Source: Acidobacteriota bacterium (GTDB lineage: Bacteria > Acidobacteriota > Thermoanaerobaculia > Gp7-AA8). Taken from it: a DNA stretch of 64,000 bases. Below are positions 21,197 to 55,734 of the stretch, one piece after another. A program made the translations under genes and the position numbers. The notes below the pieces were generated by a model. The model was not told the origin of the DNA, made no database searches, and saw only the letters and a program-made list of their open reading frames with translations. Where the stretch lies: contig JAJPHC010000063.1 of the NCBI GenBank assembly GCA_021325515.1, positions 62,001-126,000 on the forward strand, written 5' to 3'. The stretch's first letter is position 1. The number at the start of each line of letters is the position of its first letter.

Positions 21197-21217
21197 GTGC
21201 GGACGCCTCGTCCGCAC
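21197..21217. repeat. Short palindrome GTGCGGACG...CGTCCGCAC
   Basis: A 21-base near-palindrome with arms of nine bases and a CCT loop, located in the 64-base gap between two genes on the plus strand. The same unit recurs at 36.5-36.7, 40.5, 43.4 and 53.7-53.8 kb, with a partial unit at 55.65 kb; this is the shortest isolated copy. Confidence 0.85.
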
Positions 21218-36424: not shown

Positions 36425-36765
36425 ATCGCGTGACGTGATAGCACGATTGGGAACGGGCGCGTGTAACGGACGAGTGTTTTTTGGGGGGGGCATCGCACTG
36501 CTGCCTCGACGGCAGCAGCTCGCGGACGAGGACGTCCGCGCCCCAATTCCCGTCTTAGGTGGAGTGCGGACGCCTCGTCCGCACATCGCGTGTGCTTCAA
36601 CGGAGCACTGCTGCCTCGACGGCAGCAGCTCGCGGACGAGGGCGTCCGCGCTCCAATTCCCGTCTCAGGTGGGGTGCGGACGTCTCGTCCGCACATCGTG
36701 TGTTTCAACGGAGCACTGCTGCCTCGACGGCCGCAGCTCGCGGACGAGGACGTCCGCGCCCACCA
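36425..36765. repeat. Tandem block of ~109-base repeats
   Basis: This 341-base stretch between the protease start and the aldehyde dehydrogenase stop holds no gene. Copies start at 36495, 36605 and 36713 (periods 110 and 108; the third partial). Each unit contains three palindromes: CTGC-CTCGACG-GCAG, CGCGGACGAGG-CGTCCGCG and GTGCGGACG-CGTCCGCAC. A run of eight or more G lies at 36482-36490. It shares the unit found at 53.6 and 55.7 kb. Confidence 0.88.
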
Positions 36766-39655: not shown

Positions 39656-40164
39656 TGGTCGACGTCGACGAGCTCGTCCCATTTCCTGACTGACTCGCGG
39701 AAGCGCCCTTCGAACGTCATCCCCACCTTCTGCATCACGCGGCCCGATCCCGGGTTCCTCGTGAAGTGCTCCGCCTCGATGCGATGCAGGCCGAGCTCGC
39801 GAAAGCCGTAGTCGATGAGCGCAGCCGCGGCTTCCGTGGCATAGCCGCGATTCCAGTACGGGACGCCGATCCAGTAACCGAGCTCGCCGCGATCGTGCTC
39901 GCGGTGAATCGTGAGGCCGATCGCCCCCGCCAGCGCACCATCCTCACGAAGAAAGATCCCGAGGTTGACCATCTTGCCTTCCTCGAACTTCTGCACATTC
40001 GACGCAATCCAATCGGCTGCTGCACCTTCCGGATAGGGATGAGGGATCGCGAGCGTGTTCAGCGCGATCTCGTACGCGGAGACGAGGCGGTGCAGGGCCG
40101 CGGCGTCCTCCAGGTTCAGCGCGCGAAGCGTCAGGCGCTCGGTCTCGAGTGTCGGCAACGTCAC
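39613..40164 (-). CDS. GNAT acetyltransferase (RimJ/RimL type)
   Basis: A 183-residue N-acetyltransferase: LETERLTLRALNLEDAAALHRL at the N-terminus, GAIGLTIHREHDRGELGYWIGVPYWNRGYATEAAAALIDYGF with the acetyl-CoA loop (RGYATE), and HRIEAEHFTRNPGSGRVMQKVGM. Such enzymes acetylate ribosomal protein N-termini or small amines. It is the last gene of the MoxR/Bat unit, its ATG overlapping the batD stop by four bases, but it may serve an unrelated role. Confidence 0.9.
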   Translation of the reverse strand: MTLPTLETERLTLRALNLEDAAALHRLVSAYEIALNTLAIPHPYPEGAAADWIASNVQKFEEGKMVNLGIFLREDGALAGAIGLTIHREHDRGELGYWIGVPYWNRGYATEAAAALIDYGFRELGLHRIEAEHFTRNPGSGRVMQKVGMTFEGRFRESVRKWDELVDVDHYAILRSDWMAARG

Positions 40165-41741
40165 GGACGCGATTGTAGGAAATCACGCACGCGTACTTCG
40201 ATCTCTTTCTGGACGTCGTCGACCTCGATGCGTTCATGCTCGACGGAGTCGAGCAGAGAGACGACGGCTCGATACGCATCGCCGCGATCGCTCGCCTCGC
40301 GGAGAAGTGCGGCTTCGTCGAGGTCTTTCGCCGCGAGGAACGCTTGCAGCTTCGCGCGCGCCTCTTCCAGCGGATGCGTAAGCGCGCGAACGCGCGAGCG
40401 GAGAGAGAGCGCGCGGCGAATCGGAACAGCGCTCAGTCCCAGGACGGCGAGCGCGAGAACGGCGAGCGCAATGCGGCGGAGTGCGGGCGACTCCTCAACA
40501 CTGTGCGGACGAGGCGTCCGCACTCCGACCTGCTGGGCAGCGGTCACGGTCAGCGTCTTCGCCCCGCATCGGAGATCCTGGCGTCCGTTCGCAGGAGAGA
40601 AGGCGTGCGTGATCAGCGGCGGCAGGGTGAATGCGCCGTCGTGCGATGGAAAGACGAGCAGCTTCCAGTGCCGCGTCATCGTCGCGCCATCCGCGCTGCG
40701 AATGACGTTGACCTTCCCCTCTTCGATCTGCGTGCTGCCTTCAACGGGGCCTGCCCATTGCGGCGCCGGTGCATTGCGAAGATTCGCGCGGCCGCTCAAT
40801 GCGACGTCGATCGTGACCGGCCCGCCGTTCGCCTGCACCGGATTGCCGCAGTTCATCGCCACATCGCCAACGACATCGACCTGCGGTCCGGGCGGAATCG
40901 GCTGCACGTCGATGGAGAGCGGCGTGCTGTGCCGCGAGATATCGACGACGCTTCCTTCGAATTCTCCGAACGGCGTGCCGAGGTCGATCTGCCGCACGAT
41001 GCGCGCGGCCACCTCGAGCGGATCGATCGTGAGCGTGCCCGTCTGCAGCGGGAACACCGCGATCCGCTTGATGACGAGCTTCTGCGCCGTCAGCCCATCG
41101 AGCGTCACCTGCTGCGCCTGCTCGTTCGCGACACCCAGCTCTTCCGTCCAGAAGTTCTGAAGTTTCGGCGCATTCGTGATGTCCCACTGATCGACGCTCG
41201 CCGCGTTGTAGACGGTCCAGGTCACGACGATCTGTTCGCCGGCGTACGCCTTCGTTCGATCCGCTTCGACGACGACGAAGAACGGATCGCGTTTCGTGGC
41301 GAGCAGCTCGCGGAGAATGCTCGACGGGTCGTTCGTCTGACCGGCGAGATCCGCGGCGACCTGAATCGTGACCTGCGGCAGCGTCTCGTGCGCCCCTTCC
41401 TTCGACTCGAGCGCGATCGGACCGACCGCCGCCGTGCCCGCCGCCAGCGGCCGCGCGAGATAGCGCAGCGCCTTCCGCTGCGTCAACGTGCCATTCACCC
41501 ACGTGATCTCCGACGACGTCGAAGGTCCACTGACGATCTTCAGATTCGTCAGCGGCAGCTCGACGGAATCGATCGAGGTGAAGCCGCCCTCCAGCGAGAC
41601 GGTGATCGTGATCGTGTCATCGACCATGATCGAGTTGCGATCGACGGTGAGGGTATCGGCGACGGTCGTGCCGGCGAACAGCAGGAACAACGCAAGAATG
41701 GTCACGCGGGCTCGTGGGCTCGTGAAACCGCGCATCCTCAT
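40161..41741 (-). CDS. BatD-like periplasmic protein
   Basis: A 526-residue protein: signal peptide (VTILALFLLFAGTTVADT), several Ig-like beta domains (LTVDRNSIMVDDTITITVSLEGGF, NGGPVTIDVALSGRANL), a C-terminal membrane helix (IALAVLALAVLGLSAVPI) and a cytoplasmic tail. Family: BatD, linked to aerotolerance and envelope integrity with MoxR and VWA partners. Two repeat insertions are in frame: the N-terminal RGFTSPRARVT (41701-41733) and VGVRTPRPHS before the membrane helix (40503-40523). A GTG start six bases upstream (41747) is possible; ATG 41741 gives a TGATG junction. Confidence 0.85.
   Translation of the reverse strand: MRMRGFTSPRARVTILALFLLFAGTTVADTLTVDRNSIMVDDTITITVSLEGGFTSIDSVELPLTNLKIVSGPSTSSEITWVNGTLTQRKALRYLARPLAAGTAAVGPIALESKEGAHETLPQVTIQVAADLAGQTNDPSSILRELLATKRDPFFVVVEADRTKAYAGEQIVVTWTVYNAASVDQWDITNAPKLQNFWTEELGVANEQAQQVTLDGLTAQKLVIKRIAVFPLQTGTLTIDPLEVAARIVRQIDLGTPFGEFEGSVVDISRHSTPLSIDVQPIPPGPQVDVVGDVAMNCGNPVQANGGPVTIDVALSGRANLRNAPAPQWAGPVEGSTQIEEGKVNVIRSADGATMTRHWKLLVFPSHDGAFTLPPLITHAFSPANGRQDLRCGAKTLTVTAAQQVGVRTPRPHSVEESPALRRIALAVLALAVLGLSAVPIRRALSLRSRVRALTHPLEEARAKLQAFLAAKDLDEAALLREASDRGDAYRAVVSLLDSVEHERIEVDDVQKEIEVRVRDFLQSRP
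40503..40523. repeat. GTGCGGACG palindrome inside batD coding sequence
   Basis: The 21-base palindrome lies in frame in batD and encodes VRTPRPH. It is the same unit as at 21197 and 43409 but in a coding position between the last Ig-like domain and the membrane helix. Confidence 0.88.
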
Positions 41742-42379
41742 CACCACCCTACTCCCGCGTTCTCCGCCTTCCCCCTGCGCATGCGCGACAACTCTTCCTG
41801 TTCCTGTTGCTGCACGGCGCGCAGCAGCGCTTCGGCGCTCGTCTGGCCGTTCTGCTGATTCGACGGTTTTTCGCCCGGCGCGGGAGCGCGATTCTGCTGC
41901 TGGTTCTGCTGCGGCCCTTTCGGATTCGGCTGCCGGCCGCCGCCGTTCTGCTGTTGCTGGGACTCGGCTTTCTTTCGCAGCGCGATCTCGAGATTGCGCT
42001 TCGCCTGCGCATCTTCCGGCCGCATCCGCAGCACGTCCTTCAGATCGCGGATCGCGGCATCGAACGCATTCGCGGCGAGCGCGCTGGTGCCGCGGTTGTA
42101 GAGCGCGTCGGCGCGCAGCTTCGGATCGCGCATCGCATTCGACAACGTCTTCGATCCCTTTTCCAGCTCACCGGCCGCGACCTGCGCGGTGCCGAGGTTG
42201 AATTGCGCCGGCGGGGTGTGGCGGATCGCTTCCGCATCGGCGAAGGATTTCGCCGCCTTTCTGTACTCCTGCTTCGCGTATTCGGCGATTCCGCGCGACG
42301 TCGCCGCGTAGGAGCTCGTGGCCTGCGTCAGCTTCTGCCACAACCCCGTCCACGTGATGAGCAGCAGAATCGCGATCAT
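41741..42379 (-). CDS. TPR protein of the Bat operon (BatC/BatE-like)
   Basis: A 212-residue protein starting at ATG 42379 with an N-terminal membrane helix (MIAILLLITWTGLW), TPR units at about 40-140 (AEYAKQEYRKAAKSFADAEAI, ALYNRGTSALAANAFDAAIRDLKDVL), and a Gln/Asn/Pro-rich disordered tail (QQQQNGGGRQPNPKGPQQNQQ). Fits the TPR component found with BatA/B/D. The start overlaps the VWA gene stop as ATGA, the end overlaps batD by one base. Confidence 0.82.
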   Translation of the reverse strand: MIAILLLITWTGLWQKLTQATSSYAATSRGIAEYAKQEYRKAAKSFADAEAIRHTPPAQFNLGTAQVAAGELEKGSKTLSNAMRDPKLRADALYNRGTSALAANAFDAAIRDLKDVLRMRPEDAQAKRNLEIALRKKAESQQQQNGGGRQPNPKGPQQNQQQNRAPAPGEKPSNQQNGQTSAEALLRAVQQQEQEELSRMRRGKAENAGVGW

Positions 42380-43347: not shown

Positions 43348-43446
43348 GCGGTCACGCGGGTTCGCGGGCTCGGAGGTGAAGCATGGTTTCCACCGCACCC
43401 CAACTGGAGTGCGGACGCCTCGTCCGCACATCTGTCCGTCCGCGCC
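43348..43446. repeat. Repeat pair between the two VWA genes
   Basis: It holds GGTCACGCGGGTTCGCGGGC-like sequence (43348-43373) and a GTGCGGACG palindrome (43409-43429), followed by CCGTCCGCGCCCC. It fills most of the only sizeable gap in the operon. The first element is related to repeats at 41701-41733 and 62550-62634. Confidence 0.8.
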
Positions 43447-53623: not shown

Positions 53624-54828
53624 GTGTCGCAAAGAACACCGCTGACTCGACGGCAGCAGCTCGCGGACGAGGACCAAGTGGGGTGCGGACGTCTCGTCCG
53701 CACTTCGCGCCACGGAGCTCGCGGACGAGGACGTCCGCGCTCCACCCCAGGCAAGTGGGGTGCGGACGCCTCGTCCGCACTTTGTTCTCGAGGGCAATCG
53801 CTGCCTCGACGGCAGCGGCCCGCGGACGAGGACGTCCGCGCTCCACCCCTCAGCGGCTGACTTGCACCTTCACATATCGCGCGGCAAGAACAACGTCGGG
53901 ATGCCGATCCTGCGGCGGGTGATCGCCGATACGAACTGCCGGCGCGCCGGTCTTCATGCTGCAAAAGAAGTCGCCGATCGCGAAACCGGGCTCGGATCCC
54001 CACGACTTCCTGACGTCCGCCGCCACACGCGATCAACCGTTGAGGAGCGACTCCTAGGGCACGCGAGCCTCTGCCGTGACGACACTCGGGCGGAATCCGG
54101 GAGCAAGCGACGAAGAGGCAGCGAGGTAACGGAAAATCGGACGAGACGATCACGTCGGCACCGAGGGCTTCAAAGCGCTCGCTACTGATTCCAAAGAAAT
54201 TCCCTCCCTGGTTCCCGCCCGCGCCTCCCGGTAACTCCGTGATCGAAGTCGCCCCGGGGGCTACGGTCACCAAGCCCGATCGATCGCCGTAACGGTATCG
54301 AATCGCAATCGGAAATTCGTTCGGATTGACGAAGTACAGACGGAAGGTGCTGTCCTGTATGAGCGGTGCACCTCGTGCAATCACGCTCGTGCCTGGGGGA
54401 AGCCAGCCGTGCGCAATCGAAACGGTCTGCGCCACGAGTGCTGCCGGATATCGGTAGATCTCGCTTTCGATATGGATCGGCACATCGCACTCGAGCGAGA
54501 ACGATCCAAACCGAAGTACGCGCTGGCCAAAGACAATCGCGGATTCCGAGTCGATGGTCAGAGTCTGGCGGGGCTGAAGAGAGAGACGCGTGTTCTCGCA
54601 GCTGCTCACGCATGGATCGGCAACGGCGGGAAAGATCCCGGCAACAGTGACGTTGGCGACAACGTCGGACAAGTTGGTGAGTGACAACACCGAGGAGTAA
54701 GTGCCTGTCGCCCCACGCACAGACGCTCCCCACACAGGAACGACATACATGTTCGCCGAAAAAAGCGGCGTGCAACAGGCAAAGATCAGAATCGCGAGGA
54801 GCGTACGCAAGGTGGCCCGTTTCCGCAT
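53395..54828 (-). CDS. Secreted protein with rearranged or chimeric 3' half
   Basis: The frame starts at ATG 54828 with a signal peptide (ATLRTLLAILIFACCTPLFSA) and about 220 residues of believable beta-rich sequence (YVVPVWGASVRGATGTYSSVL, ECDVPIHIESEIYR, TSVIARGAPLIQDSTFRLYFV). After about 54170 it runs through the antisense of the rsmA fragment, the palindromic repeats (GRPRPRA, VRTRRPH) and the antisense of ahpD, so the original 3' end is lost. Product family not recognised. The true end is unknown; the region before 54140 is the likely authentic part. Confidence 0.5.
   Translation of the reverse strand: MRKRATLRTLLAILIFACCTPLFSANMYVVPVWGASVRGATGTYSSVLSLTNLSDVVANVTVAGIFPAVADPCVSSCENTRLSLQPRQTLTIDSESAIVFGQRVLRFGSFSLECDVPIHIESEIYRYPAALVAQTVSIAHGWLPPGTSVIARGAPLIQDSTFRLYFVNPNEFPIAIRYRYGDRSGLVTVAPGATSITELPGGAGGNQGGNFFGISSERFEALGADVIVSSDFPLPRCLFVACSRIPPECRHGRGSRALGVAPQRLIACGGGRQEVVGIRARFRDRRLLLQHEDRRAGSSYRRSPAAGSASRRCSCRAICEGASQPLRGGARTSSSAGRCRRGSDCPREQSADEASAPHLPGVERGRPRPRAPWREVRTRRPHPTWSSSASCCRRVSGVLCDTHAIATAAAFTTAAMRTASCTCSSVRPPLSTASSCERMQTSQPLIALTARQKSSKSGLFVAGFAMRCIRSRAGRSP
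53635..53852. repeat. Composite palindromic repeat block after ahpD
   Basis: It contains two GTGCGGACG palindromes, several CGCGGACGAGGACGTCCGCG units and CTCGACGGCAGC segments, as in the 36.5 kb tandem block but shuffled. It immediately follows ahpD and precedes the rsmA-derived fragment. Confidence 0.87.
53889..54076 (+). pseudogene. Degenerate partial copy of rsmA and its downstream region
   Basis: 53889-54014 matches the intact rsmA at about 50382-50515 at clearly high identity (both contain GCCGATCCTGCGGCG and GTCTTCATGCTGCA), with an internal deletion of about eight bases. The copy then jumps to the sequence after rsmA (54058-54076, GGCACGCGAGCCTCTGCCG, as at 50859-50877). It codes no intact protein. 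A duplicated and eroded fragment beside the repeat block. Confidence 0.8.
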
Positions 54829-54839
54829 AGTAGAGGCCT

Positions 54840-55650
54840 CTAGAATGTGCAGCACGCGCGTCTTCTGGGAACGAACGTGAAGAGTAGTAGATTGGGCGTT
54901 CCCAGCCCGAGATTTGTGATCTTGTTCGGCGTCGCGCAGTCTTTTAACAAACCTTGGATTGTGCTGGGCGCGTTCGTAAACCCATATCGTTCATAGTGCA
55001 AAGCCGCCACACCGGAAACATATGGCGTTGCCGCCGAGCAACCCGAAAATGTGTTCACAAAATTCGATGCGGACATCGTGGCCACACCTACCCCGGGAGC
55101 CAAAATGTCGATGCAGTTGCCATAGTCGGAATCATTCGAGAAGCTGTGATACCTATCGGTCGCACCGACCGTGCTTGTGCTTCTGCCATTTTGATCGGAG
55201 TAAATCGTTGAGCTACCAACTCTTGCTGGAGAGTTTCCGCAAGCGTTAAAGCGAGCGAGTCACCTCGTTCGTTATTGGATCGTGAAAAGCATTTCCAGCG
55301 CATGCCACGAACGTTATACCAGCTTCTACCGTGTGCAAGGCAGCTAGGTCTAGATCCTGTACGACGCTGTGATCTCTCACTACCCAGTCGATACCGGCAA
55401 GAATGTCGGCTGTTGAGCCCCTGTTGTCACATCCAAGAACTCGAACGCTAACGATCGTTGCTTGTTTGGCAACCCCCAACGTCCGGCCAGCAGCAATTGA
55501 AGCGACTTGGGTGCCGTGGCCGAAGTTGATGTTGTTATAGATAACGCAATCATCAACAGCGTTGGGATCAACTATCCCGTTGCTGTCTGAGACAAAGTTT
55601 ACGCGTTGCCTAACACGACTAAAAATGTCGTCAACCAGATATACGCCCGG
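54840..55650 (-). pseudogene. Broken subtilisin-like (S8) protease gene
   Basis: The translated pieces keep all three S8 regions: YLVDDIFSRVRQRVNF (Asp), FGHGTQVASIAAG (His), and SGCSAATPYVSGVAALHY (Ser). The first reading frame ends at a stop at 55246; continuing in the next frame gives NACGNSPARVGSS and GNCIDILAPGVGVATM up to 54840, so one frameshift separates the halves. At the 5' end, the signal peptide and propeptide are missing: the frame joins directly to the repeat at 55648. It appears to be a secreted protease truncated by the repeat and frameshifted. Confidence 0.75.
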
Positions 55651-55734
55651 ACGCCTCGTCCGCACTTTGTTCTCGAGGGCAATCGCTGCCTCGACGGCAG
55701 CGGCTCGCGGACGAGGACGTCCGCGCTCCACCTC
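55648..55734. repeat. Composite palindromic repeat before treZ
   Basis: It carries CGGACGCCTCGTCCGCA, TGCCTCGACGGCAGCGGC and CGCGGACGAGGACGTCCGCG, same as the 53.76-53.85 kb copy over most of its length (both also contain TTTGTTCTCGAGGGCAATCG). It marks the junction where the S8 protease gene is cut. Confidence 0.87.

Follow-up and report, generated by a model that had tools for sequence, protein, structure and literature searches.

REP, BIME, and REPIN systems with an associated RAYT have been described previously (Nunvar 2010, PMC2817692; Bertels and Rainey 2011, PMC3116915). Intragenic GTAG REPs have been reported from several species, where they lie inside ORFs and are read in frame, and the same survey names RAYTs from Acidobacteria (PMC3733652). 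Rickettsia palindromic elements (RPEs) often occur within genes, and RPEs with the CGTC tag lack a dedicated transposase (as cited in PMC3733652).

The palindrome described here comes from a soil Acidobacteriota genome (Thermoanaerobaculia, Gp7-like) of 5.38 Mb in 63 contigs. The window, the whole stretch of DNA that was analyzed, is 64 kb long. The 21-mer is a REP hairpin with a perfect 9-bp stem and a 3-base loop. The full unit, referred to as class A, is 5'-GTGG[A/G]-GTGCGGACG-[C/T]CT-CGTCCGCAC-3'. It contains no stop codon in any of the six frames, as read directly off the sequence. A total of 79 class A copies were orientable within a 1.89-Mb sample. The GTGG[AG] head was matched at 5/5 positions in 59 of the 79 copies and at 4/5 in another 17, and the family thus has the GT(A/G)G tetranucleotide that is required 5' of a REP hairpin. 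The loop was CCT in 44 of the oriented copies and TCT in 26, and the flanks were variable outside positions -5 to +3. The last base of the head covaries with the first base of the loop (A with CCT in 37 copies and G with TCT in 22, 59 versus 9 crossed). This pairing distinguishes two subtypes or reflects a link in recognition.

Copies within the window were searched for on both strands with up to 3 mismatches. This gave 15 matches, against 0.04 expected from shuffled windows. Perfect-arm copies were found at seven sites. The one inside batD is on the minus strand and matches GTGCGGACGAGGCGTCCGCAC exactly at 40503-40523; with its head (CGGA, 40524-40527) it spans 40503-40527. The others are on the plus strand. 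They comprise a lone intergenic copy (21197-21217), two copies in an intergenic array at about 36.5 to 36.76 kb (36564-36584 and 36674-36694, the second with a TCT loop), a copy in the bat operon, in the intergenic gap between a pair of VWA genes (43409-43429), and two copies in an intergenic array at 53.6 to 53.85 kb (53683-53703 with a TCT loop and 53760-53780 with a CCT loop). A degenerate relic with 3 mismatches is present at 55645-55665, also on the plus strand. The intergenic copies listed in the earlier note were all recovered, but its position 36563 should read 36564, and it did not list those at 36674 and 55645. A second REP class, class B (GGAGCGCGGACGTCCTCGTCCGCG), is inverted and sits between class A copies. 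It was found on the minus strand at 53720-53743 and 53821-53844, within the array at 53.6 to 53.85 kb, and at 55706-55729, after the degenerate copy. REPs no more than 100 bases apart alternate in orientation in 74 of 91 adjacent pairs, and such alternating inverted neighbors are the BIME/REPIN arrangement. A third short palindrome, GCTGCCTCGACGGCAGC, separates class A REPs from the inverted class B REPs in the arrays at 36510-36760 and 53640-53845 of the window.

The pattern GTGCGGACGNNNCGTCCGCAC has 165 exact copies across the genome, and its reversed control has 0. Among 18 other genomes of the same order, one contained 1 copy, one contained 3, and the rest contained none. An exact scan of genome contigs for the 24-mer gave no match beyond the host genome. 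The family has the high copy number (about 100 or more) and the mostly intergenic location of REPs, with one gene-interior site among 39 clusters. The genome-wide mapping proposed in the earlier note thus bears out its suggestion of a dispersed, spreading element family. Several contigs start or end in or beside REP arrays (C5:34-258, C7:102223-102552, C18:87, and C40:284713-285001), and the arrays probably break the assembly.

The genome contains seven Y1_Tnp genes. One of these, the RAYT (REP-associated tyrosine transposase) gene at G000:C54:67612-68229, is on a different contig from the window and is directly flanked by two inverted class A REPs that share a 27-base match. This is the placement of a RAYT within inverted copies known from REP systems. 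The C54 RAYT scored 85.1 bits against the NCBIfam model REP_Tyr_transpos (NF047646; cut-off, 80). The remaining six Y1_Tnp genes are without flanking class A REPs. In other genera (G012, G001, G009, and G015), relatives of the RAYT are accompanied by their own inverted palindromes, which have GT[AG]G heads. The hairpin at the G012 RAYT, GTAGGAGTGCGGACGTCCTCGTCCGCA, is nearly identical to the class A hairpin. Since a RAYT gene is flanked by inverted REPs, its product passes the NCBIfam cut-off, and related RAYTs have their own palindromes, the family is a REP family with a cognate RAYT. The C54 RAYT is the predicted cognate transposase of the class A REP.

Placement relative to genes was surveyed in 1.89 of the 5.38 Mb with a home-made codon-usage gene caller, on contigs partly picked for REPs or RAYTs. 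Predicted coding sequence made up 91% of this sample, and gene-interior calls were made for 2 of 39 class A clusters (P about 1e-36). Across the 1.89 Mb, the exact 21-mer lies inside a coding gene only in batD. The other interior call, an array on contig C12 that falls in a 1052-codon frame, was rejected as coding; it sits between methyltransferase and M16 peptidase genes. REPs at gene ends (C11:22211 and C20:11547) were left out of the interior count. It had been proposed that a palindromic repeat whose length is a multiple of three can be tolerated in coding DNA in either orientation. The arithmetic holds, with six frames free of stops, but it explains little, as the copies are almost absent from genes.

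The gene batD is on the minus strand at 40161-41747. This reading frame of 528 codons has a match to Pfam BatD (PF13584), a membrane protein, and the nearest named relatives of its product are from Thermoanaerobaculia and Acidobacteria Gp7 MAGs. The palindrome is real and in frame, as the earlier note had read it. The minus strand reads CGGA-GTGCGGACGCCTCGTCCGCAC, and the core codons GTG CGG ACG CCT CGT CCG CAC encode VRTPRPH, or (G)VRTPRPH with the head. The core is the commonest variant in the genome, including the CCT loop. The head is imperfect (TCGGA versus GTGGA), which is also the case in some other single copies. The copy folds into a 9-bp hairpin (z, -3.0).

An alignment that covered relatives in the same order confirmed that VRTPRPH lies between the Ig-like region and the membrane helix. 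It is located in a hypervariable linker rich in Pro, Arg, and Ala that leads from the last beta strand to the helix. A search of 99 loci carrying BatD relatives recovered no VRTPRPH segment and no REP core, and the same segment in unrelated BatD proteins, which would have spoken against the mobile-element reading, was thus not found there. The region that starts at the conserved Cys and ends with the membrane helix is 51 amino acids long, including the 7 REP residues, versus 52 to 64 in complete relatives. The host linker is therefore the shortest among the complete relatives compared even with the REP residues, and a simple net insertion is not demonstrated. The description of the segment as inserted in batD stands as far as its variable position and its absence elsewhere are concerned, but the lengths do not indicate a gain. 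The copy may have replaced part of the linker or may have been inserted into a shortened linker, either of which fits as well as a simple net insertion.

We consider it very likely that the palindromes are a RAYT-linked REP family and that one copy contributes in-frame codons to a variable, noncritical linker of BatD. The class A REP was probably spread in the genome by the predicted single-strand-cutting HUH/Y1 activity of the C54 RAYT. In single-stranded DNA, the RAYT is predicted to recognize the hairpin together with its head. Almost all copies come to rest or persist between genes, either alone or in alternating BIME/REPIN-like arrays. One copy would have landed, by insertion or replacement, in the unconserved stretch of batD that leads from the last Ig-like strand to the membrane helix. 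The six open frames would have let batD survive with seven REP-encoded residues, presumably with a neutral effect on BatD.

A broader version of this reading is doubtful. It holds that REPs or REP pairs of this RAYT family recurrently become coding in interdomain or premembrane linkers, so that the RAYT supplies new linker peptides, and that the batD copy replaced the native linker. Besides batD, it draws on two cases. A class A copy forms the C terminus of a rhomboid gene. A 555-amino-acid protein contains a related REP pair, GTGGAAGGCGGACGCCTCGTCCGCC...CGCGGACGAGGCGTCCGCACTCCAC, in frame between its N-terminal leader region and its amidase domain. Directly ahead of the amidase domain there is an internal ATG, and translation from the upstream start is uncertain. 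The amidase pair is at C51:58560-58630 (L065 18560-18630), is inverted, and has GTGGA...TCCAC ends.

The palindromes could instead be selected bidirectional terminators or mRNA-stabilizing hairpins, with the batD copy a regulatory hairpin of the operon and not debris of a mobile element. We regard this as improbable. Class A clusters do prefer convergent gaps (12) and codirectional gaps (19) to divergent gaps (2; background, 123, 502, and 191, respectively), and the copy between the two VWA genes is in the same operon as batD. A T-run after the hairpin is absent in the copies listed, and the alternating arrays, the inverted copies around the RAYT gene, and the near restriction to one genome are signs of a mobile family. 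Secondary use as an RNA hairpin is compatible with a REP origin. With a second REP at 43409, the hairpin may play a role in the transcript of the bat operon.

It is very improbable that batD has an Arg/Pro-rich linker that came to resemble a REP by chance or convergence. The linker shows no net gain in length, and a REP-like 23-mer in an AMP-binding enzyme (C61:137548, L108) indicates that chance or substitution can produce such a stretch. That 23-mer encodes ADETSALL directly before the AMP-binding YTSGTTG motif; it was not counted, as it involves no insertion or change in length and keeps the conserved residues. In batD, however, all 21 of 21 core bases and the adjoining GGA match, where shuffled windows give 0.04 matches at up to 3 mismatches, and the core is the commonest genomic variant down to its loop. 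Least probable of all is an RPE-like element adapted for in-frame insertion into proteins, as the in-frame reading, the stop-free frames, and the in-frame amidase pair would allow, since it is mostly refuted by the almost complete avoidance of genes, and the short unit has a GTGG head and a RAYT partner, which the published survey connects with GTAG and not with CGTC or RPE-type repeats (PMC3733652).

The RAYT-linked REP family resembles the described REPs, REPINs, and BIMEs (PMC2817692 and PMC3116915) in its GT(A/G)G head, 20- to 40-bp hairpin, more than 100 copies, alternating orientation, intergenic location, and RAYT within inverted copies. It differs from them in its host, an Acidobacteriota Gp7 lineage, and in its own sequence with a perfect 9-bp stem and 3-base loop. 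Like RPEs, it places a palindromic repeat in frame in a protein; unlike RPEs, class A is almost entirely intergenic and RAYT linked, and gene-interior sites are not frequent. As with intragenic GTAG REPs (PMC3733652), the batD copy lies within an ORF and is read in frame. The intragenic GTAG REPs are stressed for DNA repair and replication genes, whereas here the sites are the BatD linker and, for a related REP pair, an amidase linker. In-frame intragenic REPs are already known in other bacteria (PMC3733652), and the batD copy is therefore a new instance of a known phenomenon that leaves the understanding of how REPs work unchanged. The family adds a well-defined REP/RAYT pair from an uncultured group of Acidobacteriota, and its batD copy is a clear case of a REP read as protein. 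RAYT-associated palindromes with GT[AG]G heads occur across several genera of one family, with REP sequences that are largely genus specific.
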